Below, piece after piece: positions 34,264-43,638 of a stretch of 64,000 bases of DNA. Numbering within the stretch: the first letter of the stretch is position 1; every line of letters starts with the position of its first letter. The stretch comes from an uncultured SAR86 cluster bacterium. Its GTDB lineage: Bacteria; Pseudomonadota; Gammaproteobacteria; Magnimaribacterales; D2472. The stretch lies in assembly GCA_902602185.1 (NCBI GenBank), contig CACKPV010000002.1:124001-188000 (forward strand). Reading direction: 5' to 3'. Position numbers and translations under genes: made by a program. Under the pieces are notes generated by a model, which ran no database searches, was not told where the DNA came from, and worked only from the letters and a program-made list of their open reading frames with translations.

Positions 34264-34339
34264 GCCCAGATAGCTCAGTTGGTAGAGCAAAGGACTGAAA
34301 ATCCTTGTGTCGGTGGTTCGATCCCACCTCTGGGCACCA
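34264..34339 (+). tRNA. tRNA-Phe (anticodon GAA)
   Basis: The 76-base cloverleaf has a 7-bp acceptor stem (GCCCAGA with TCTGGGC), a D-arm GCTCAGTTGGTAGAGC, an anticodon stem AAGGA/TCCTT enclosing CTGAAAA with GAA at 34297-34299, a T-arm GGTGGTTCGATCCCACC, and an encoded CCA end at 34337-34339. Its 3' half is duplicated at 39831-39877, marking it as the integration target of the island downstream. Confidence 0.97.
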
Positions 34340-34340
34340 T
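34294..34340 (+). repeat. attL: tRNA-Phe 3' segment, left direct repeat of the island
   Basis: The 47 bases from the anticodon stem through the encoded CCA plus one T are identical to 39831-39877. The match begins at ACTGAAAAT in the anticodon region and ends at GCACCAT. Both flanks diverge at once. Integration into the 3' half of a tRNA with restoration of the gene is the mode used by P4-type tyrosine recombinases. Confidence 0.9.
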
Positions 34341-34367
34341 TCTTAAATCATTCTTCAGATTTAAACA

Positions 34368-34393
34368 GGTGAACAGTCAGTTGCCTGTTCACC
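34368..34393 (+). terminator. Hairpin between tRNA-Phe and the island operon
   Basis: A 9-bp perfect stem (GGTGAACAG 34368-34376, CTGTTCACC 34385-34393) with an 8-base loop is followed by AAATTGATTTTTAATT. It lies between the tRNA and the end of the convergent helicase gene, inside the island. It can terminate the tRNA transcript and possibly the operon from the other side. Confidence 0.6.
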
Positions 34394-34403
34394 AAATTGA
34401 TTT

Positions 34404-36929
34404 TTAATTGAGTCTTTTTGAGTAGAGTTCTTCTGAACTTATAACAGTATCCCATAAACCTATGCCCAAATTTTCTGGGTCATGTTTGGTAAATCCTTTG
34501 TAATGCAATGATGCATCTTCGTATCTTTTAAAAGACTCAACTGCTGAATTCATTTCAGTTGAATTAAATAGTCCCAAACTGCGAAGCAAGTCAAATTCTC
34601 CAACCGTTAGTGAAGTTACTTGCTTAAATAAACCTGGTTCTACTTTTGTAATCACATCTTCAAGGCACAACTCCCTAAAATCAGTTAAATACATGAATAT
34701 AGGAATTCTGGTTGCGAATTTTTGAAGTTTTTCTTGAATTTGTCTTCTTAAATTTCTTGTTTTTTTCTCCTCGTCAGAAAGTTCTTGCTTTTGTTTTTTC
34801 GTGAGTTCATTTTCTACAGAATCTTTCTTTAGTTTATTTATTTTTTCTGATTTGTTAATTATTTTTTCAATGTCGGTATTCAAGTTTCTAAAACCTTCAA
34901 TCTTCATGAGTTTTTCCATTGCTTCTGGATTTTGCATTAATCTTGCTAAAGTTGTGTTATCAACATGGACTAATCTTGCACTCTCAAACTTTTTTGCAAG
35001 TTGAGAACCAGAAGTTCCAACTGTGCCTATATCTAGGACTGCTCTTGCATTTACCTGGCCCATTGAGCTTCCATCAAAACAAAGAACCGGAAGAAATTTT
35101 ACAAATTTTCTAACTTTTATTTCTGGGTCAATAGGTTCCACATTTAATTTACAACTATATTCGGTAATAAGTCTTAGTGCTCTGTTTGGTGCAAAATCAA
35201 ATACATAACATTCATCTTTTATAATTTCTTCTTTGTTTGGTGAGTCTTGAACTCCAATAGTCCATGGTGATTGAACCCTAAAGGCAGTTTGGAAATAGGT
35301 TTCTGGAGAGGTTGTATTTCTTAACATGAATAAACCCGTCCATGGTTTTACAGTGACACCAGTGGTTAGTTTTCCACAAGATAGTGTAATAGTCTTCGTT
35401 CTTAAAGGGTTATCTGTCATCTTTTTTCTAACAGGAATGAGTGCCTTGGAACCAATACCTGCTTTTGTTCCAGCACAGGCAATAATTTCATAATCATGAT
35501 AAAAAGTATTTGCTCTTTGCATCATGAGATTTTTCATTGCATGACATGATGCAATAGATGGCATAAACCACAATGTATGAGTTAATAAATTCTTTACTGC
35601 AGCATGTTGAAATGGAAAATATTGACTATCTCCACCAACCTTAAGAGATGTATAAGCATTTTTTATGCCTGAACCTCGAATTAAATCCAACCACTGCTGA
35701 ACATGATTTTCATGTTTAAACCTTGCACCCTCACCGTTACCAGTTGCTTTGAAAAATTCATTTAAATCAAACTCATCATATTCTCCTGTATCAGTAATTT
35801 GCGAAATGGAGTTGGGCATTTTATAAGTCATCATTACCATCCTTGGTAAGGATGCATATGGATTATCCTCTCCAACCCATCTCTCTTTAGCATCTTGCTC
35901 ATCAGAATAAGCCCAATTAAAAATTTGCTCTTCTATAAATTCTCCAGATTCTATTGCTCTAAATGGAGTGCCACTTAGATATAAATAATGATTAGTTTTC
36001 AGAGGAGAAATGCTTTCATCCCAAATTTTTTGTGAATCTGTATAACCTTCTTCTTTTCTAATTTCTTCGTTTTCTTTTTTTAAATTGTCATCTACAGATG
36101 AAAGGATTCCTTTTGAATTTTCATTCCAAGCACCATAATGATATTCATCTAAAATAATGCAGTCCCAGTTTATTTTATGAGCCCATTCATTTTTGACTTT
36201 AATTCCACCTGCTTTACTTTTTCCTAAAAAATCTTGAAAGGATGCAAAACATACATATGGTTTATCCACAGAAACATCTTGATTGGTTTCTGTCTTGCCT
36301 TGGATAAATTGCCAATTTTTAAAATCTATATGTGTTAATAAATCCTCTTTCCATGACTCCTCAACTGCGGGTTTAAAAGTTAAAACAAGCACTCGTTTCC
36401 AATCCATTTCTTGAGCAAGTTTGTATGCAGAAAAAGTTTTCCCAAATCGCATTTTGCAATTCCATAAAAAGTGTGGAGTTTTTTTCTCAGTTGCTTTGTA
36501 AGACTTAAAGTATTTGGATGTAATATCTACTGCTTCTTTTTGTTCTGGTCTTAGAGAGAAGTTATGCTCTCTTTCAGGGTTCATTGATTCTTTGTTTTTT
36601 GCAGCAATGATTGCTGCTTTTAATTCACCTGGATTACATCTAAACCATTCATAACCAACTTTCTCGTATCCATTCTTTTCTAAAATTTTATGAACTAAAT
36701 GGTCTTTAAAAAAAGTACCATCATTTCTCATCGATGATTCTTCAACTAAAACCTCATATCTCTTAATTCCCTCTGGACCGGCAGTTGGAAAATGTTCTTT
36801 CATTCTTTCCTCAACGCTTCTTTCGGTATATCCAACTCTGATAAGTCCTTCGTATTCTTTAGATAATTCTGTATATCCATAAATCTTTGGTGAATGGTTA
36901 GAACGACTTGGAAAGAAGCCCTGAGACAT
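34404..36929 (-). CDS. GIY-YIG nuclease / SF2 helicase fusion (predicted restriction subunit)
   Basis: The 841-residue protein fuses two activities. Residues 15-100 form a T5orf172/MUG113-like GIY-YIG nuclease domain: IYGYTE, then IRVGYTERSVEERMKEHF with the catalytic Arg region, and YEWFRC near 93-98 with the likely Glu. Residues 125-570 are a superfamily-2 DEAD-like helicase with Walker A variant MRFGKT (160-165), motif II DEYH (261-264), motif III SGTPFRA (319-325), motif V TTGVTV (522-527) and motif VI QTAFRVQSP (547-555). A Lys/Glu-rich, probably coiled-coil stretch lies near 680-740. The start ATG shares one base with the methylase stop (TAATG). A translocating nuclease guided by the adjacent methylase's site choice is the natural reading; the activity is inferred. 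Confidence 0.85.
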   Translation of the reverse strand: MSQGFFPSRSNHSPKIYGYTELSKEYEGLIRVGYTERSVEERMKEHFPTAGPEGIKRYEVLVEESSMRNDGTFFKDHLVHKILEKNGYEKVGYEWFRCNPGELKAAIIAAKNKESMNPEREHNFSLRPEQKEAVDITSKYFKSYKATEKKTPHFLWNCKMRFGKTFSAYKLAQEMDWKRVLVLTFKPAVEESWKEDLLTHIDFKNWQFIQGKTETNQDVSVDKPYVCFASFQDFLGKSKAGGIKVKNEWAHKINWDCIILDEYHYGAWNENSKGILSSVDDNLKKENEEIRKEEGYTDSQKIWDESISPLKTNHYLYLSGTPFRAIESGEFIEEQIFNWAYSDEQDAKERWVGEDNPYASLPRMVMMTYKMPNSISQITDTGEYDEFDLNEFFKATGNGEGARFKHENHVQQWLDLIRGSGIKNAYTSLKVGGDSQYFPFQHAAVKNLLTHTLWFMPSIASCHAMKNLMMQRANTFYHDYEIIACAGTKAGIGSKALIPVRKKMTDNPLRTKTITLSCGKLTTGVTVKPWTGLFMLRNTTSPETYFQTAFRVQSPWTIGVQDSPNKEEIIKDECYVFDFAPNRALRLITEYSCKLNVEPIDPEIKVRKFVKFLPVLCFDGSSMGQVNARAVLDIGTVGTSGSQLAKKFESARLVHVDNTTLARLMQNPEAMEKLMKIEGFRNLNTDIEKIINKSEKINKLKKDSVENELTKKQKQELSDEEKKTRNLRRQIQEKLQKFATRIPIFMYLTDFRELCLEDVITKVEPGLFKQVTSLTVGEFDLLRSLGLFNSTEMNSAVESFKRYEDASLHYKGFTKHDPENLGIGLWDTVISSEELYSKRLN

Positions 36930-38425
36930 TAGTAAACCTTTATAGTAGTTTCAATTTCATTTATTTCTTCTTTTGAGAGTTTAAATATTGAATAAAGTTT
37001 TTCATCAGTAACATCGTAATTATCTAGTTTTGGAACGAATCTAAACTTTTCCATTGTAAATGAGATGCCAGACGTTGCTTGAGACAATAAATATCTAAAA
37101 AATTTTGTTCTCATATAGTTCAAGAAATTTTCAGTAATTTTTTCATTTTTAAATGGTCCAACCATCAAATATGAATCAGTGCATATTTGTTTAGGAGGCA
37201 ATATCATAGATGTTGATAGCACTCTATATTGACCAGATTTATCTGGTTGTCCGGCATGCTCACTTGTTCGGGCACTAATCATAATTTTATGCATATCAAC
37301 AAAATCTTTTCCTTTGCGAATATCTAATTGATTTACATACCCTATACCTTGGCTATGATGCAACTGAACACTTTTATTTGTTTTGTCTTCACTGCCTCTG
37401 TCCTTTGTTACAAATCCAAAAACATTTCTTGGTTTTATAAACTCCTCAACTGATTCAAAATCATTTGCGATTACTTTATTAACAATATCAATGCCAATAT
37501 TATTTCTAATAAAGATTGGAAACTCATTTAATCTTCGGGTTCTAGAAGTTTGTTTTCCATCTTTGGTATTAACTACCTCGCATGGTCCGTCATAATCTCT
37601 TTCCCATAAAAAATAATTAACACCGCCACCTAAACTTACTCCAGGAAAACACTCTTTTGCATTAATAAAGTCATTCAAATATTTGACTCTAGTATCTGAA
37701 AGCATTTCATCTCTAAAGTCATTAAGCCCCTTTCCACCAGCAAACCATCTGGAGGGAATAATCATCGAAATGAACCTTGGTTTTAGTTTCTTTGCTGCTG
37801 CAACAAACTTATGATAAATAGGTATAGCGCTTGCTCCATGACCACCATCCTTCATTTGATATGGTGGATTGCCAATAATTACATCAAATTTCATATTAAA
37901 TAATTCCTCCGGTTTATCCTCATGAATAAAGGAGTATGCATATGATTCTAACCCCTTTTCTCTTTGGTGTATGTCTCTGCTTGCACCGCAGTATTTACAT
38001 TTTTTTCCATCTGCATAAAAATGCTCTGATTCAAAGTACTTTAAATTGCCCTCATCATCATCAAAATCAACAATTGAATATTTCCCACCTACATTCTTGG
38101 AACAATAAAGAGTTCTTCTAGATATTTGCGAGGTAAGTCTTGTTGTTGCAATGCCAAAGACTTGATTTTTTAGAATATGTTCTAGTCTTTGTTTTATATC
38201 AGGAATCTTGTTTTCTAGTCCGTCCAGCAATCTTTTGTTTATTTCTCTTAAGAAAACTCCTGATTTAGAAACAGGGTCTAAAAATGTTGCTGAGTCATCA
38301 CTCCATATCTCTTTTGGAAGTTGGTCAAGCATTTGATTTGCTACATCTGGAGGAGTAAATACTTCATCACTGCTTAAGTCTGCGAGACAAGTAAGAATAT
38401 CTGGATTATGAGGGATATTCAGCAT
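36929..38425 (-). CDS. Eco57I-type N6-adenine DNA methyltransferase (modification/specificity subunit)
   Basis: The 498-residue protein has motif X EVFTPPDVANQML (21-33), a motif I variant FLDPVSKSGVFLRE (48-61) for SAM binding, a CKYCGA zinc-knuckle-like segment (Cys 143 and 146), and the adenine-methylase catalytic NPPY (186-189) in FDVIIGNPPYQMKDGGHG. PSRWFAGGKGL and GVSLGGGVNYFLWERD follow, then a long C-terminal region that likely recognises DNA. Eco57I-like methylases of this exact motif set recur in bacteria, to my recollection often beside a GIY-YIG/helicase gene, but I know of no experimental study of the module. It overlaps the small upstream subunit by 7 bp and the helicase by 1 bp. 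Confidence 0.87.
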   Translation of the reverse strand: MLNIPHNPDILTCLADLSSDEVFTPPDVANQMLDQLPKEIWSDDSATFLDPVSKSGVFLREINKRLLDGLENKIPDIKQRLEHILKNQVFGIATTRLTSQISRRTLYCSKNVGGKYSIVDFDDDEGNLKYFESEHFYADGKKCKYCGASRDIHQREKGLESYAYSFIHEDKPEELFNMKFDVIIGNPPYQMKDGGHGASAIPIYHKFVAAAKKLKPRFISMIIPSRWFAGGKGLNDFRDEMLSDTRVKYLNDFINAKECFPGVSLGGGVNYFLWERDYDGPCEVVNTKDGKQTSRTRRLNEFPIFIRNNIGIDIVNKVIANDFESVEEFIKPRNVFGFVTKDRGSEDKTNKSVQLHHSQGIGYVNQLDIRKGKDFVDMHKIMISARTSEHAGQPDKSGQYRVLSTSMILPPKQICTDSYLMVGPFKNEKITENFLNYMRTKFFRYLLSQATSGISFTMEKFRFVPKLDNYDVTDEKLYSIFKLSKEEINEIETTIKVY

Positions 38426-39063
38426 GAATTATGTGCCTCATCATAGTTAACAAGTTTGTAATCTTTGATAGGTGAAGGGATATGAACTTCGTCTCCCATA
38501 TCAGAAAATAAAGCTACCTTATCAAATGGGGGATATGCAAGTAAATCTGAAAGTGTGAAGTCTCTTCTTTTAAGTTTGTTGTTTATAATTGCCCATTCAC
38601 AAAAAGTGACTGGATTCTCACTATCAACTTCCTTTAGGGTGAGTGCATCACCATGAATAATATTTTTGTCGATAATAAATTTAATAGACTTAATTAAATT
38701 TTCATTGGAGTATTCTTTAAAATATTTTTCATATACCTCAATAAATCTATTAAATAGTCTTTCTCTTGCAGACTGAGCATTGTCTTCAAGAATATCCACC
38801 CCATAAATTGAACCAACAACAACTATAGAATTTCTTTCAAACTCATACTGATTTTTTTTATATTTTTTTACAAGAATATCTAATTTTCTGTTTAATACTT
38901 CAATTAAAAAGTTTCCATCTCCACATGCTGGTTCCAGAAACCTTGAATCAAGTCTTTCGGTCTCTTGTTTGACTAAATCTAGCATTGCATTAACCTCTCT
39001 TTCTGAGGTATTGACCTCACCGAAGTCTGCAACTCTTTCTTTTGATTTAACTTGATTACTCAT
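38419..39063 (-). CDS. Small N6-adenine methylase-like SAM-binding subunit
   Basis: The 214-residue protein contains a good SAM-binding motif I (FLEPACGDGNFLIEVL, residues 42-57), preceded by ERVADFGEVNTSEREVNAML resembling motif X, and a motif II-like IYGVDILEDN (86-95) and IHGDALTL (136-143). No NPPY/DPPY catalytic tetrapeptide is present; the nearest is AYPPF at 176-180. It may bind SAM or activate the larger methylase without methylating DNA itself. It is the first gene of the operon. Its ATG has no Shine-Dalgarno sequence and lies 7 bp from a CATAAT-like -10, which suggests a leaderless mRNA. The last residues (YDEAHNSC) overlap the next gene. Confidence 0.8.
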   Translation of the reverse strand: MSNQVKSKERVADFGEVNTSEREVNAMLDLVKQETERLDSRFLEPACGDGNFLIEVLNRKLDILVKKYKKNQYEFERNSIVVVGSIYGVDILEDNAQSARERLFNRFIEVYEKYFKEYSNENLIKSIKFIIDKNIIHGDALTLKEVDSENPVTFCEWAIINNKLKRRDFTLSDLLAYPPFDKVALFSDMGDEVHIPSPIKDYKLVNYDEAHNSC

Positions 39064-39070
39064 TGATTCA

Positions 39071-39100
39071 ATTATGCCATTAAATAAATTTTGGCATAAT
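39071..39100. promoter_or_regulatory. Palindromic divergent promoter/operator of the island
   Basis: A perfect 9-bp inverted repeat, ATTATGCCA (39071-39079) and TGGCATAAT (39092-39100), is separated by 12 bases of A/T. Each arm contains a CATAAT -10-like box reading outward: one lies 7 bp from the methylase-operon ATG (39063) and the other 6 bp from the micro-frame ATG (39107). The right arm and the start that follows recur at 39923-39956, upstream of the lipoprotein gene. It may be a symmetric promoter, an operator for an unseen regulator, or both. Confidence 0.5.
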
Positions 39101-39119
39101 AAATATATGAAAAAGTTAG
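39086..39119 (+). repeat. 34-bp gene-start repeat, copy 1 (copy 2 at 39923-39956)
   Basis: The segment from AAATTTTGGCATAAT through ATGAAAAAGTTAG is present at 39086-39119 and 39923-39956, differing at one position (A/G at 39101/39938). It covers a -10-like box, the start codon and the first four codons of two lipoprotein-like frames. One copy lies inside the island and one just outside, with attR between them. Confidence 0.8.
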
Positions 39120-39166
39120 CATTGTTAGTCTCTTTATTTATTATTGTTGGATGTGGGCAATCATGA
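39107..39166 (+). CDS. Putative 19-residue micro-lipoprotein or truncated gene start
   Basis: A short frame encodes MKKLALLVSLFIIVGCGQS and stops. It is all signal peptide with a lipobox (IVGC) and three residues after the Cys, like entericidin-size lipoproteins. Its first 13 bases and the 21 before them match the start of the lipoprotein gene at 39944 with one mismatch. It could be a real lipopeptide made from a leaderless transcript, or the remnant 5' end of a copied gene. Confidence 0.35.
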   Translation: MKKLALLVSLFIIVGCGQS

Positions 39167-39200
39167 AGAAGACTTTAGAAGATCTTTAAATTAAACAAAT

Positions 39201-39226
39201 TATGAAAAATATACTTTTAATGATTT
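39201..39226 (+). repeat. 26-bp gene-start repeat, copy 1 (copy 2 at 42140-42165)
   Basis: The 26 bases TATGAAAAATATACTTTTAA plus TGATTT occur identically at 39201-39226 and 42140-42165. In the second copy they encode the start of the exported repeat protein (MKNILLMI). Here they open a frame of 24 codons that leads nowhere recognisable. This looks like a displaced gene-start fragment. Confidence 0.6.
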
Positions 39227-39246
39227 TAGAAGTTAGACATACTTTG

Positions 39247-39283
39247 CAATATTTATGCACAGTCGTGCACATTTAGAATATTG
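39247..39283. repeat. Imperfect inverted repeat upstream of the island's exported-protein gene
   Basis: Nested arms CAATATT (39247-39253) with AATATTG (39277-39283) enclose TGCAC (39256-39260) and GTGCA (39265-39269). The structure sits in a 295-bp gene-poor stretch (39064-39358) that otherwise holds the palindromic promoter, the micro-frame and a gene-start fragment. It could be a regulator or recombinase binding site; there is no T-run to make it a terminator. Confidence 0.4.
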
Positions 39284-39358
39284 TGCAAAAATATTTAATT
39301 GAGAGATCTATCATAAAAAGATAAACTCAGTATTTAGCAAAAAAAATGGAGATTAATT

Positions 39359-39727
39359 ATGAAAAAATTATTTTTAACTTTTGCAATCATTCCTATTAGT
39401 TTGTTTTCAGATGATATTTACTTGAAGTGCGAAACTGATCAAGATTTTGTTGAATCATTGCAAATGCAAGAAACCTACGAACTAACAATTAATATGGATA
39501 GCAAAATTGCTGATGTGTCATCTTTAAGTCCAAAATTGTCTGGTAAAATAAGAATTGGAGTCCAACCTGAAGAAATTGTAGTGAATGGTTATATTCCGAG
39601 TATATTTGGTACTCCATATCTTGTTGATTTTAAAATTAATAGAAAAGACCTTGAAATGAAATCAAGTTTTTTAGGTTATAAGATTGGTCAATGCTCTAAA
39701 GTAGAAATTGAAGACAATGTCTTTTAA
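39359..39727 (+). CDS. Small exported protein of unknown function (island cargo)
   Basis: I do not recognise this 122-residue protein. It starts MKKLFLTFAIIPISLFS, a standard signal peptide with probable cleavage near FSDD. The mature part is about 105 residues, mainly predicted beta-strand, with two Cys (YLKCET and GQCSKV) that could form a disulfide linking the two ends. It has repeated polar/hydrophobic alternation (LTINMDSKIADV, VDFKINRKDLEM). A GGAG-type site lies 7 bases before the ATG. It is the last gene before attR. Confidence 0.7.
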   Translation: MKKLFLTFAIIPISLFSDDIYLKCETDQDFVESLQMQETYELTINMDSKIADVSSLSPKLSGKIRIGVQPEEIVVNGYIPSIFGTPYLVDFKINRKDLEMKSSFLGYKIGQCSKVEIEDNVF

Positions 39728-39830
39728 TTAAAAGTTTCCATAAAAAAAATTTTATTATTTTTTCTAATTTTACGAAGGACTTCGAGCAAGACTTTTTTTA
39801 AATTTATTATCTTGCTTGATTTTAAGAATA

Positions 39831-39877
39831 ACTGAAAATCCTTGTGTCGGTGGTTCGATCCCACCTCTGGGCACCAT
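39831..39877 (+). repeat. attR: partial tRNA-Phe copy, right direct repeat of the island
   Basis: Forty-seven bases are identical to 34294-34340. They include the anticodon loop, T-arm, 3' acceptor strand and CCA, but the 5' half of the tRNA is missing, so this is not a functional gene. Just before it lie an AGCAAGA/TCTTGCT inverted repeat (39785-39791, 39810-39816) and a CGAAGGACTTCG palindrome, possible recombinase arm sites. Confidence 0.9.
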
Positions 39878-39943
39878 GCTTATTTAGTTTCTTAAGATTT
39901 AAGTCCAAATACAATATAAAAAAAATTTTGGCATAATGAATAT

Positions 39944-40414
39944 ATGAAAAAGTTAGTGATTCTTTGTGTGTTTTTTATCTTTTCATGCTCTGATAATAAA
40001 AATTTAGAACAAGTTAGTTATAGTGAATTTAAGCAAGAAGTATTAGCTGATCAAATTGCTGAGGTAACCTTTAAAAGTGATCAGACAACAATAATTGGTA
40101 TTCGTATTGATGGTACAAAGTTTGAAACCATGAAACCAATGTACATATCAGATGAAGTTTTAGAGAGTGCTCTTATAGAAAATGAGGTTGTTCAATCCTA
40201 TGAAGCTTTGGAGCAACCCTCTATAAAATTTCAACTATTGATTAATGCACTACCAATAATTTTAATAATAATAATTCCCCTTTTACTGCTTGCAATTTGG
40301 GCAGCGTATCTTGCATCCAATAGAAATCAATCAAAGGCATTGTGGTTTTTCTTAACTTTAATCTTCCCATTTGCCATAGTCATTATTGCTTTTAAAGATA
40401 AAGTGAAGAAATAA
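39944..40414 (+). CDS. Lipoprotein-like membrane protein with FtsH periplasmic (FtsH_ext-like) domain
   Basis: The 156-residue protein begins with a hydrophobic signal and a loose lipobox ending in Cys15 (IFSCSD). Residues 25-90 resemble the periplasmic domain of the FtsH protease: VSYSEFKQEVLADQIAEV, a TTIIGI strand, and DGTKFETMKP, close to the common DGTKF-x-T-x-x-P pattern. A transmembrane segment follows at 97-122 in the position of FtsH TM2, but instead of AAA and protease domains a second helix (131-150) and a short Lys tail end the protein. It might bind FtsH or its partners HflKC as a decoy or adaptor. That role is inference. The start region is shared with 39107. Confidence 0.65.
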   Translation: MKKLVILCVFFIFSCSDNKNLEQVSYSEFKQEVLADQIAEVTFKSDQTTIIGIRIDGTKFETMKPMYISDEVLESALIENEVVQSYEALEQPSIKFQLLINALPIILIIIIPLLLLAIWAAYLASNRNQSKALWFFLTLIFPFAIVIIAFKDKVKK

Positions 40415-40423
40415 TCCTCATTA

Positions 40424-40681
40424 TTATCTTTTTAAAGTTTTTAATAATTCTTCGACTTTGATATCAAAATTGTCATCACTCAAAGCATCTTTAACACATG
40501 CTTGTAGATGACTTTTTAAAATCTTGCCTTCTACAGAAGAGATAGCATTTTTAACAGCTTTGATTTGATTGAGAATGTCAATGCAGTATTTATCATCATC
40601 AATCATTTTAGCAATACCCCTTATTTGCCCTTCTATTCTATTGAGGTTAGCTAGTTGATCTTTATGACATGGATGGCTCAT
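40424..40681 (-). CDS. CsoR/FrmR-family metal-sensing transcriptional repressor
   Basis: The 85-residue all-helical protein shows LANLNRIEGQIRGIAKMID, KYCIDILNQIKAVKNAI and SHLQACVKDA. Cys33, His58 and Cys62 give the x-C-H-C pattern of Cu(I)-sensing CsoR, rather than the HCHH set of nickel/cobalt RcnR. The N terminus MSHPCHKDQ adds extra potential ligands. The ATG at 40681 is chosen because it overlaps the MerT-like stop as ATGA; longer readings add residues belonging to the other frame. As the last gene of the metal operon it likely represses it and releases DNA on metal binding. Confidence 0.85.
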   Translation of the reverse strand: MSHPCHKDQLANLNRIEGQIRGIAKMIDDDKYCIDILNQIKAVKNAISSVEGKILKSHLQACVKDALSDDNFDIKVEELLKTLKR

Positions 40682-41043
40682 AAAAAACTGGGGACAAGAT
40701 AAGTAAAAATTGTGGCAAAAATAAATAAGGCTGCAGAAGCATAGTAGATATATCTTGATCTTCTCCTGCTTCTCATGCATGCCTGACCAAGTTCTGGGTC
40801 GGCTGGACAAGGCATATGATAGGTTTTGTAATTTACGTAACCGGCGATGCCAAGCATTGTCAGGGCAAATAGAGATATGTATAACTTATATTGGGATAGC
40901 ACGATTAGAAATGGAAAAACGGTGATCAAACTTGCAAAGGAGGCACCTGCACCAACTGCAACAAATACTGCGGGTAAAGCACAACATATCAATGTGGATG
41001 ATGAGGCAAATAAAGACAAAAAATTAGCAGACTTGTCATTCAT
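40678..41043 (-). CDS. MerT-like metal transport membrane protein
   Basis: The 121-residue protein has three predicted transmembrane helices. The first carries adjacent cysteines (LICCALPAVFVAVGAGAS, Cys20-Cys21), the signature of MerT. A loop with a second Cys pair (CPADPELGQAC) lies between helices 2 and 3, again as in MerT. No mercuric reductase or MerR is present. The regulator beside it is CsoR-type, so copper or another soft metal is at least as likely as mercury. It is co-transcribed with the MerP-like gene (5 bp gap) and csoR (4-bp overlap). Confidence 0.8.
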   Translation of the reverse strand: MNDKSANFLSLFASSSTLICCALPAVFVAVGAGASFASLITVFPFLIVLSQYKLYISLFALTMLGIAGYVNYKTYHMPCPADPELGQACMRSRRRSRYIYYASAALFIFATIFTYLVPSFL

Positions 41044-41048
41044 GATAA

Positions 41049-41450
41049 TTAGATCTTAAGTATGCTCATCCCCGTTGCATTCTGACCATTTGCAAGGATC
41101 TTTTGACTGATGACATCGAAACTAATCTCTGCATCACTGGTATAAGCTATCAAAACCTTTCCTTTAGTCAGATCAACATCAATCTTTTTTACAGCAGCAT
41201 CTTTCATAAATGTTTTTTCAATACCTCTTGCACAAAAATCACATACCATTCCTTTCACACTCACAACAGCTATCTGTGAATTATCAAGGCCGTCAACAAA
41301 GTTCTGGAATCTATCAGAATCCAATTGCAACTTAGTACCATCAACTAAAATGTCATTGTGATGATGACCCTCATGTGTATGAGTCTCATCAAGATCCATA
41401 GCATGGGATAAAGAGGTGAATAAAAATATAAACATTACTAAATACATCAT
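41049..41450 (-). CDS. Periplasmic heavy-metal-associated (MerP/HMA-like) protein
   Basis: A signal peptide (MMYLVMFIFLFTSLSHA) is followed by a His-rich linker (ETHTHEGHHHND) and a ferredoxin-like HMA domain with the metal-binding site KGMVCDFCARGIE. In MerP and copper chaperones the CxxC binds a soft metal and passes it to the membrane carrier. At 133 residues it is longer than MerP because of the His-rich insert and a preceding strand (DGTKLQLDSDRFQNF). It lies between the outer-membrane gene and the MerT-like gene. Confidence 0.82.
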   Translation of the reverse strand: MMYLVMFIFLFTSLSHAMDLDETHTHEGHHHNDILVDGTKLQLDSDRFQNFVDGLDNSQIAVVSVKGMVCDFCARGIEKTFMKDAAVKKIDVDLTKGKVLIAYTSDAEISFDVISQKILANGQNATGMSILKI

Positions 41451-41460
41451 TCTTTTGCTC

Positions 41461-42066
41461 CTAAAATCTATACATCAAATGTACATCAAATTCAGTCTTA
41501 TCATTATAACCAAACTCCATCAGTACATTGCCTTTAAAAAACTTTAACACTGGGTAAGTGGATCGTTTATCATTTAATGAATTTTTTTTGGTTTTGAACA
41601 TAATCCAGGTATGAAAGTCTCCATATTCTCCAAGATATGGAGCAAATCCTGCTTGGAAATATTGATCATTGTAATCCAGCTTTGAGGTTACAACCTCTTT
41701 TAGTCCAAACCCTACAAACCATCTTCTTGTCTCCCAATCTCCGTGAACACCATAAAAATAATCTTCCATGCCCTTCGAGCTTAAACCAGATTGGAAGTAT
41801 AAATTCCTTTGAGAATTGTCAGTATTTTTTCTATTCAGCAAATACGTAAATCTTGCATAAGAATAATTGGTGTTAAAAAATTTATCTTTTAATCTCTCTA
41901 TACCAATTGAATATTTATAAGAAGGAGAATAATGATAGTACAAAGAATCTTTCATATTATCGGAGAATGCCATTATTGTGGAACCGCCTGAATAGGAAAT
42001 AGGCCTGGCATCACTGTAATTGATGCAAATTGCAAATAAAATGATAACTCTTAAACTAATACCCAT
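41461..42066 (-). CDS. Predicted outer-membrane beta-barrel protein of the metal cluster
   Basis: The chosen start, ATG 42066 (MGISLRVIILFAICINYSDA), gives a signal peptide; reading from 42168 would add 34 hydrophobic residues that do not fit. The mature 180-odd residues are rich in aromatic, alternating amphipathic strands (YSYARFTYLL, RNLYFQSGLSS, RRWFVGFGLKEVV, YFQAGFAPYLG) and end in FDVHLMYRF, the C-terminal Phe typical of outer-membrane barrels. I do not recognise a named family. As first gene of the csoR/merT/merP-like operon it may be a metal-related porin or structural partner. Confidence 0.65.
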   Translation of the reverse strand: MGISLRVIILFAICINYSDARPISYSGGSTIMAFSDNMKDSLYYHYSPSYKYSIGIERLKDKFFNTNYSYARFTYLLNRKNTDNSQRNLYFQSGLSSKGMEDYFYGVHGDWETRRWFVGFGLKEVVTSKLDYNDQYFQAGFAPYLGEYGDFHTWIMFKTKKNSLNDKRSTYPVLKFFKGNVLMEFGYNDKTEFDVHLMYRF

Positions 42067-42140
42067 GGGGGGTATATTATAGTAAAAGAGAAAATAAATA
42101 AATGAGAAGTTGGCAGTATGGAATACAATTAGTTGAATAT

Positions 42141-42533
42141 ATGAAAAATATACTTTTAATGATTTCAATAATTTTCCATACGGTTATCCAAGCCGAAGTT
42201 GAAGTATGGGATTGTAACGAGCTTAAAGGTGCTAAAATTGTGAGCTCCGATGGTGAATATCTCGGCACGTTGGGGCCGTCTTGGGAATCAGATTCAATTT
42301 ATAATGAATACTCAGAATATTCCTCAGAATGGGGCTCAAATAGTATTTATAACGAATATTCTGATTATGGCAGCGACTATTCTAATGCATCTGTATTCAA
42401 TGAATACGCCTCTGATCCTCCCAAGATAATTAATGAGGATAATGAAGAAATCGGTTTGTTATCAGTGGGGCCGGATTGGGATGATGAGAGAAAACATCCT
42501 GAGGATATTAAATATACCTGTGACTGGGATTAA
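42141..42533 (+). CDS. Exported protein with tyrosine-rich SIYNEYS repeats
   Basis: The 130-residue protein starts at ATG 42141 with a signal peptide (MKNILLMISIIFHTVIQA); an in-frame ATG at 42102 would put 13 residues ahead of it. The centre has three consecutive repeats of about 16 residues: SDSIYNEYSEYSSEWG, SNSIYNEYSDYGSDYS and NASVFNEYASDPP. They are flanked by GEYLGTLGP and IGLLSVGP, which resemble each other. Comparable S-x-x-N-x-Y-x-x-Y-G-S repeats occur in uncharacterised secreted bacterial proteins. The acidic C terminus has one Cys (YTCDWD) that could pair with the Cys in VWDCNE. It ends 1 bp before the convergent monooxygenase gene. Confidence 0.65.
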   Translation: MKNILLMISIIFHTVIQAEVEVWDCNELKGAKIVSSDGEYLGTLGPSWESDSIYNEYSEYSSEWGSNSIYNEYSDYGSDYSNASVFNEYASDPPKIINEDNEEIGLLSVGPDWDDERKHPEDIKYTCDWD

Positions 42534-42534
42534 T

Positions 42535-43638
42535 CTAGAATTTATAAATTCTATCCATTTGCCAATTAATAATATTAGTCTTGGACATAATAAAATTTCT
42601 TGCTTTTCTCACTAATGGATTGCTTATGTGGTTATGGACAGCTTGTTCTTTAGATAATCTGGTAATCAATTTCACTCTGGGCATTCTTATTTTTTCATAT
42701 TTATCCTGCACCTCTTTGAAATCATTTGCGTTGGATAATAAGTCACTAAAAACATAACCATCTTCGATGGAGAGGCATCCGCCTTGACCTAAAAAAGGGA
42801 CTATCGGGTGAGCAGCATCTCCAAATAATGTCATAGAGTCAGTACAATACTGATTTGAAACTGGTCTGATATAAATACCCCATTTATAAAATTTGTCAGC
42901 AGAATTTACGGTTGCTAGATGGTACTTGGACATCAAACCAATATCTGTCTTTAATTCCTCAATGTCTCCTTCCTGTATCCATGACTCTTGCTGTTGCGTT
43001 GAGGTCTTGATGACTCCAACAAAACTCGACAAAGTCTTGCTGATTGGATACAGCACTAAATGCTTGCGCGGAGAAAGCTGAAGATAAGCATCTTTAGTGC
43101 TATTTTGACCGATGCACCGCCATGCAGAATAGCCACTAAATACCGGAGCTTCTTTGCTTTTAAAGTACTTGTCTCGTATTGTTGATTTGATGCCATCGCA
43201 AGCTGCAAGATGCCAAATTTTGTAGGTTTGACTATTTTGGAATTGTGTAACTTTCGTTGTTGGATTAAAAGAAATAAATTCATGATCAAACCTAACCTTT
43301 CCACCTAGCTCAAGATATTTTTTATATAAAATATTTACAAGTCGTTCTCTAGAGATACAGCAAACGCGTGAATCTACTGAGGTAATGAAAGCCTCGTCAT
43401 CGAGAAAATTAATCTTCTCTGAGAATAGACCTTCTTTAAAAAGATGCTCTTTAAGGTCAAGTTGTTCAAGCAAATTGATGGCATTGGGAGATAAGGATAT
43501 GCCGGCACCACCTTCTCTAAGATGAACTGATCTCTCAAAAATAACTGAGGGGATATCTTTGTTTGCTAAAAAACAGCCCAAAGATAATCCGGCTATCCCT
43601 CCACCAACAATGCCAATATGATCAGAGTAGTCTTTCAT
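42535..43638 (-). CDS. FAD-dependent monooxygenase (class A flavoprotein hydroxylase)
   Basis: The 367-residue protein has the FAD-binding GIVGGGIAGLSLGCFL at the N terminus, the ACDGIKSTIRD motif that contacts FAD and NAD(P)H, and LFGDAAHPIVPFLGQGG near the C terminus. It fits the UbiH/salicylate-hydroxylase/TetX fold. The substrate is not inferable; GLGQG-type closing and a VRVLY-like fingerprint are not distinctive. It is convergent with the repeat protein (1 bp gap) and divergent from the SGNH hydrolase (27 bp). Confidence 0.88.
   Translation of the reverse strand: MKDYSDHIGIVGGGIAGLSLGCFLANKDIPSVIFERSVHLREGGAGISLSPNAINLLEQLDLKEHLFKEGLFSEKINFLDDEAFITSVDSRVCCISRERLVNILYKKYLELGGKVRFDHEFISFNPTTKVTQFQNSQTYKIWHLAACDGIKSTIRDKYFKSKEAPVFSGYSAWRCIGQNSTKDAYLQLSPRKHLVLYPISKTLSSFVGVIKTSTQQQESWIQEGDIEELKTDIGLMSKYHLATVNSADKFYKWGIYIRPVSNQYCTDSMTLFGDAAHPIVPFLGQGGCLSIEDGYVFSDLLSNANDFKEVQDKYEKIRMPRVKLITRLSKEQAVHNHISNPLVRKARNFIMSKTNIINWQMDRIYKF

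Follow-up and report, generated by a model that had tools for sequence, protein, structure and literature searches.

The stretch analyzed here, called the window throughout, comprises 64,000 nucleotides of a genome assembled from an uncultured SAR86 bacterium (contig CACKPV010000002.1), and it carries inserted DNA next to its tRNA-Phe gene. We propose that this DNA (34341-42538) consists of small cargo cassettes, at least three, that were inserted successively into tRNA-Phe and now form a decayed stack, and that it belongs to a population of SAR86 units that are attachment site (attP)-plus-cargo cassettes mobilized in trans. We give this joint reading a probability of about two in three. It is based on units bounded by copies of the tRNA-Phe 3' half across the SAR86 order: 44 of 47 encode no integrase, and many of these have end repeats that match each other and lie at a fixed spacing. 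As a class, the units therefore fit mobilization in trans.

Site-specific insertion at tRNA-Phe

ARAGORN found tRNA-Phe(gaa) as the sole tRNA gene of the window. The initial annotation had reported that 47 bp of its 3' half recur exactly downstream, and this was confirmed. With flanking bases, the direct repeat extends to 51 of 52 positions, with one mismatch. The landmarks of the site are the following.

34264-34339, plus strand: tRNA-Phe(gaa), the target gene (ARAGORN)
34294-34340, plus strand: att core copy 1, the tRNA-Phe 3' half, starting in the anticodon loop (exact repeat)
39831-39877, plus strand: att core copy 2, the distal tRNA-Phe 3' half (exact repeat)
42539-43638: start of the ancestral right flank, with a monooxygenase gene at 42535-43638 on the minus strand (congener comparison)

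An empty site had been predicted to join tRNA-Phe directly to the sequence at 39878. The congeners do not support this prediction. Three congeners (G002, G004, and G007) carry an Fe-trafficking gene, tRNA-Phe, and then, within about 12 nt, the monooxygenase gene, and the window matches their right flank from 42539 on. Therefore, the inserted DNA is the whole of 34341-42538 (8.2 kb) and not 34341-39877 alone. The 5.5 kb between the repeats is also not the single unit that had been proposed, as a second cassette has its left end within this stretch, at about 39190-39290.

In a further congener, G005, a 1.03-kb unit and a distal tRNA copy are followed by the window-type flank, which agrees with G007 in 34 of 35 nt. 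At five more occupied loci, the match to an empty genome (89-99% over 300 nt) was confined to the distal side. These empty sites and occupied/empty pairs bear out the proposed site-specific insertion into tRNA-Phe, which has occurred repeatedly.

Few tRNA-Phe units encode an integrase

We surveyed 203 genomes of the SAR86 order, assembled from single cells or metagenomes and varying in completeness, for copies of a 45-nt tRNA half with at most 3 mismatches. A reversed-pattern control gave zero matches in every genome listed. About 48 of the 203 genomes have at least two tRNA-Phe 3' copies, and we dissected 47 bounded units of 0.2-9.5 kb from 40 genomes. A tyrosine integrase is encoded in only three of these, found in G015 (9.5 kb), G127 (8.5 kb), and G080 (4.1 kb). 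The G080 integrase was missed by the Pfam catalytic model and matched phrog_1 (1.8e-22); its unit has no recognized replication gene. The PF00589 search took in all 40 genomes. In addition, 37 larger unit proteins were scanned against PHROG, and no more integrases emerged; very divergent ones could have escaped both searches.

The units form an array of variable cassettes beside the tRNA gene, bounded by repeats of its 3' end. The location is constant, while the content differs between strains and is absent from some. By our assignment, restriction-modification (R-M) genes of types I, II, and III are present in about 17 of the 47 units. The window's metal-handling set is found at tRNA-Phe in G011, G056, G116, G107, and G124 too, and it is att-bounded in the last three. 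Close relatives carry shared cassettes in differing array contexts (L064, L066, and L068).

In the window itself, closer inspection upheld the claim that no recombinase lies between the repeat copies: no protein matched one in Pfam or PADLOC, and the phage integrase family was also negative. The annotation had suggested a search for helper integrases elsewhere in the same genome. We found only two PF00589 proteins in the window's assembly (1.09 Mb, 82% complete). At 316 and 321 amino acids (aa), they are presumably XerC and XerD, judged by size, and two is the usual number in relatives of this genome. No helper for the window's cassettes was found in this assembly. The label "P4-type" proved unsupported, as there is no P4-like integrase or primase gene at the window locus. 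Conjugation genes likewise had no match in Pfam and PADLOC scans of the unit between the repeats (unit 1).

Several whole small contigs in SAR86 genomes carry integrase genes: L155 (7,952 bp), L156 (3,551 bp), L157 (6,375 bp), and L162 (3,506 bp). These contigs may represent mobile elements that are free or unplaced, and they are possible helpers.

Unrelated cargo shares conserved ends with arm-like repeats

We observed that units of unrelated cargo have common ends. The class-A left end has, about 29 nt past the tRNA, two direct 8-nt repeats and one inverted repeat (TATGAACACTTATGAACAC...GTGTTCATA and variants). The class-A right end has two direct repeats and a conserved segment of about 50 nt ending in TCGAGTCAAGA or similar, followed by ACTGAAAATCC. 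The double repeats at unit ends include the types GTGAACAG, TATGAACAC, TTGAACAG, and GTGCACA.

Left and right repeats agree within the unit in 14 of 15 units, whereas 200,000 permutations of our own type assignments never gave more than 12; common ancestry of ends inflates simple permutation tests. K-mer tests, which leave out a 198-bp unit whose ends overlap, were concordant, also with near-identical left ends removed. The sole mismatched unit, L063, looks like a hybrid.

The spacing of the repeats is also conserved. For the 19 class-A right ends that we checked, the distances from the right repeats to the core are always 61 and 49 nt, irrespective of repeat sequence. The same layout is seen in the three units with an integrase, whose right pairs are spelled differently and lie at 62/50, 66/55, and 74/63 nt. 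Allowing one mismatch, we found eight occurrences of the left double repeat TATGAACASTTATGAACAS in the 203 genomes, all of them at tRNA-Phe units. The AGGTTCAC type is present in the integrase-bearing L077 and the integrase-less L076, and the TTAACACA type in the integrase-bearing L078 and the integrase-less L048, L059, L061, L067, and L081u1. The TTGAACAG type spans three host families, on units that differ in their R-M cargo (L065, L079, and L087). We infer that the end repeats are integrase arm-type sites flanking an attP core; the fixed core distance and the parallel layout in integrase-bearing units favor arm sites over replication origins.

A protein of about 108 aa and no known family, p109, is encoded in nine tRNA-Phe units whose cargo is unrelated and almost all of which have a class-A right end (copies include L149:6118-6444, L143:7549-7872, L152:4111-4431, L151:5732-6046, and L148:2871-3182). 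It had no match in Pfam or NCBIfam and no significant match in PHROG, and its predicted fold is poor (mean pLDDT, a predicted local distance difference score, of 61). A role in mobility or as an accessory factor is conceivable. In addition, a class-A right end lies in SCGC AAA168-P09 a few kilobases downstream of a glmS-like gene (L150:5934-5955 and the next ~20 nt). It is joined via ACTGAAAATCC only, with no tRNA half, to a class-A-like left end (TTCTTAGAGCATT), and this junction has the appearance of an attP-like remnant left at a second site.

The window copy is a composite

The features of the inserted DNA are as follows.

34341-34393, plus strand: class-A left end, with GGTGAACAG at 34368-34376 and inverted CTGTTCACC at 34385-34393 (end alignment, geometry)
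34404-36929, minus strand: T5orf172 (GIY-YIG-like)/ResIII helicase restriction protein, 841 aa (Pfam and PADLOC)
36929-38425, minus strand: Eco57I-type DNA methyltransferase, 498 aa (Pfam, 5e-32; PADLOC)
38419-39063, minus strand: second methyltransferase-like protein, 214 aa (weak MmeI_Mtase match, 5.4e-6; PADLOC MTase_II, 2.3e-9)
39190-39287, plus strand: class-B left end, internal, its GTGCACA-type repeats at 39255-39287 (alignment with the L083u1 left end)
39359-39727, plus strand: 122-aa protein with a signal-peptide-like start, class-B cassette cargo (open reading frame)
39783-39830, plus strand: class-B right end, with inverted repeat 39783-39790/39811-39818 (end comparison)
39944-40414, plus strand: lipoprotein-like protein with an FtsH extracellular domain, 156 aa, in the second inserted stretch (Pfam, 2.2e-7)
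40424-42168, minus strand: metal-handling set of a CsoR/RicR-like repressor, a MerT-like protein, an HMA chaperone, and a 235-aa protein (Pfam, NCBIfam)

Cassette 1 holds the restriction protein and methyltransferases, in agreement with the defense-type cargo first annotated, and has lost its right end. Its class-A left end is of the GTGAACAG type and has one 11-nt repeat fewer than those of L051 and L069. Cassette 2 (0.7 kb, about 39190-39877) contains the 122-aa gene, whose product has no match in Pfam, PADLOC, or PHROG, and has lost its left tRNA copy. Beyond 39877, stretch 3 carries the lipoprotein and metal-handling genes and has no outer tRNA copy.

The GTGCACA double repeat with which class B starts occurs five times in the 203 genomes. 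Four occurrences begin 64-65 nt after a tRNA-Phe copy; the fifth is at window position 39255, with no preceding tRNA copy. Therefore, we treat ~39190-39877 as a separate cassette. Its right end is common to L053, L064u2, L066u2, and L068 and, by alignment, L083u1. A deletion probably took both the tRNA copy before ~39190 and the R-M cassette's right end; we looked for tRNA remnants near 39190 and 42539 and found none.

The initial annotation had left two possibilities, a decayed island or an element moved in trans. Both parts stand, at different levels. The window copy looks decayed, with outer ends of different classes and with one left repeat and the internal and outermost tRNA copies missing. 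Because its outer ends differ in class and two tRNA copies are gone, it is probably no longer mobile as one piece. For the units as a class, the rarity of integrases and the many matched, fixed-spacing ends fit mobilization in trans.

The helicase restriction protein (34404-36929) has full-length relatives of 47-49% identity on plasmids of alphaproteobacteria and Corynebacterium and relatives of 50-53% in gut phage records. Only one other genome of the SAR86 order has it (G046, 59%, at a contig end). Near-identical promoter-plus-signal-peptide starts (TTTTGGCATAAT...ATGAAAAAGTTAG) lie 837 nt apart at 39091-39119 and 39928-39956, the former followed by the reading frame of a truncated lipoprotein. 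In L059u1, a similar sequence, TTTGGCATAAT, comes after the left repeats.

Mobilization in trans and its alternatives

In the model that we favor, a lambda-type tyrosine integrase from another element would bind the end repeats, as arm sites, and a core in the anticodon stem. With a 7-nt overlap, CTGAAAA, in the anticodon loop, it would excise the cassette as an attP-bearing circle. Insertion of this circle into the tRNA-Phe anticodon loop would restore the tRNA, and the former 3' half would be left behind as the distal repeat. The most recent cassette would then adjoin the tRNA and supply the tRNA-Phe 3' part.

Several results weigh against this model. We found no integrase accompanied by the GAACA or GCACA repeat types in SAR86, in IMG/VR, or in twelve other integrase regions, and no circular form or mobility was observed. 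The integrase-less units of the TTAACACA type retain their repeats mainly on the left end, and phage contigs carry similar repeats near primase-like genes, which makes the repeats possible origins. Searches for the helper gave little more. The twelve SAR86 regions with other or weak integrase matches had none of the searched repeat types, the G080 integrase had no relative in phage records, and that of G015 had relatives of only 21-28% there. Exact IMG/VR searches with the 45-nt att, the class-A right end, and the right double repeat gave no matches, the att result being weak evidence on phage packaging. IMG/VR matches to the left double repeats, several of them beside primase-like genes, were rejected as att sites.

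If decay alone were responsible, ordinary integrase-bearing elements would have lost their integrase after insertion, and none would be mobilized in trans today. The window copy, which is plainly decayed, would fit this explanation, as would the integrase-bearing units that occupy tRNA-Phe too and the several units without recognizable repeats at one or both ends. However, matched repeats at unchanged spacing persist on both sides of at least 14 units that lack an integrase, which is unlikely for functionless ends. In addition, 44 of the 47 units have no integrase, and the end types recur across families with different cargo. We consider decay alone unlikely. The end repeats could instead be replication-origin repeats for a helper's P4-alpha-like primase, with the units as its satellites and the integrase separate. 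Similar double repeats do lie in IMG/VR contigs L094, L097, L140, and L141, beside primase-like-looking proteins of 680-797 aa; we presume that these are primases and that the repeats are P4 alpha-like. An origin would not need a constant distance from the core, however, and the integrase-bearing units share the layout despite unrelated repeat sequences, including the G080 unit with its integrase and no recognized replication gene. Therefore, we regard this role for the repeats as improbable, even more so than decay alone.

Finally, cassettes might spread without an integrase, by homologous recombination via conserved flanks after transformation or transduction. Flank exchange would likewise place shared cassettes in different contexts, as in L064, L066, and L068. 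It does not fit well with junction-exact occupied/empty pairs in several genera, in which the outer flanks are 89-99% identical and the inserts unrelated, or with end types conserved between families. We consider this route very improbable. Mobilization in trans thus remains our preferred reading. More tentatively, at somewhat below even odds, SAR86 may have a dedicated cassette system, in which attP-only cargo families are each tuned by their end repeats to one phage-type integrase on rare helper elements. If true, this would be an integron-like economy on a lambda-type integrase, stacking R-M and other cargo in the tRNA-Phe of a streamlined, mostly integrase-less lineage.

Relation to known systems

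Cis-mobilizable elements (CIMEs) are bounded by att sites and lack a recombinase. The window unit has both properties, with att-repeat bounds and no recombination genes. As in CIMEs (a term that appears in PMC5704250), att sites are retained and units stack beside complete elements. Unlike CIMEs, the window's unit 1 gave no sign of a conjugative parent, and the end repeats suggest recognition in trans.

Additive flexible genomic islands, such as Alteromonas fGI1 (PMC4119200) and Methylopumilus fGI-2 at tRNA-Lys (PMC10872708), are likewise variable cassettes at a tRNA gene marked by repeats of its 3' end. The SAR86 47-nt repeat, by contrast, begins in the anticodon loop, and the cassettes end with matched arm-like repeats, which the texts consulted on these islands do not report. 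The ssrA-specific islands of Dehalococcoides also lie in tandem at one RNA gene and are bounded by its 3' repeat, and 16 of 31 carry an integration module (PMC3146451). They use a serine recombinase, whereas the bearing units in SAR86 have tyrosine integrases and the cassettes are mostly smaller. Tycheposons are likewise tRNA-associated cargo elements of marine bacteria (Hackl 2023, as described in PMC10872708 and PMC10187409), but in these sources they are described with tyrosine recombinases, which most SAR86 units, including the window unit, lack. The window unit also lacks the integrase that a P4-like or phage satellite carries. Hitchers such as CALINs (clusters of attC sites lacking integron-integrases) and MITEs (miniature inverted-repeat transposable elements) have no recombinase of their own (PMC11389934). 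Like them, the SAR86 cassettes retain their ends and are proposed to use the recombinase of another element. They differ in that the target is a tRNA gene and the repeats are tRNA halves; no attC or transposon ends were seen, and no attC model search was made.

We found no earlier description of the SAR86 cassette system in the literature searched, with subscription papers mostly outside the search. What is new relative to known islands is the presence of matched, spacing-fixed, arm-like ends on integrase-less units.

Significance

SAR86 is an abundant lineage of the surface ocean. The genomes of the order examined here are about 0.7-1.8 Mb, and most have only two tyrosine recombinases, presumably XerC and XerD. 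Integrase-less units with integrase-style ends would account for the turnover of defense genes in such genomes. They allow a test of whether islands that lack an integrase are dead relics or are instead passengers that have a specific helper, and the end repeats would serve as the address label by which that helper can be traced.

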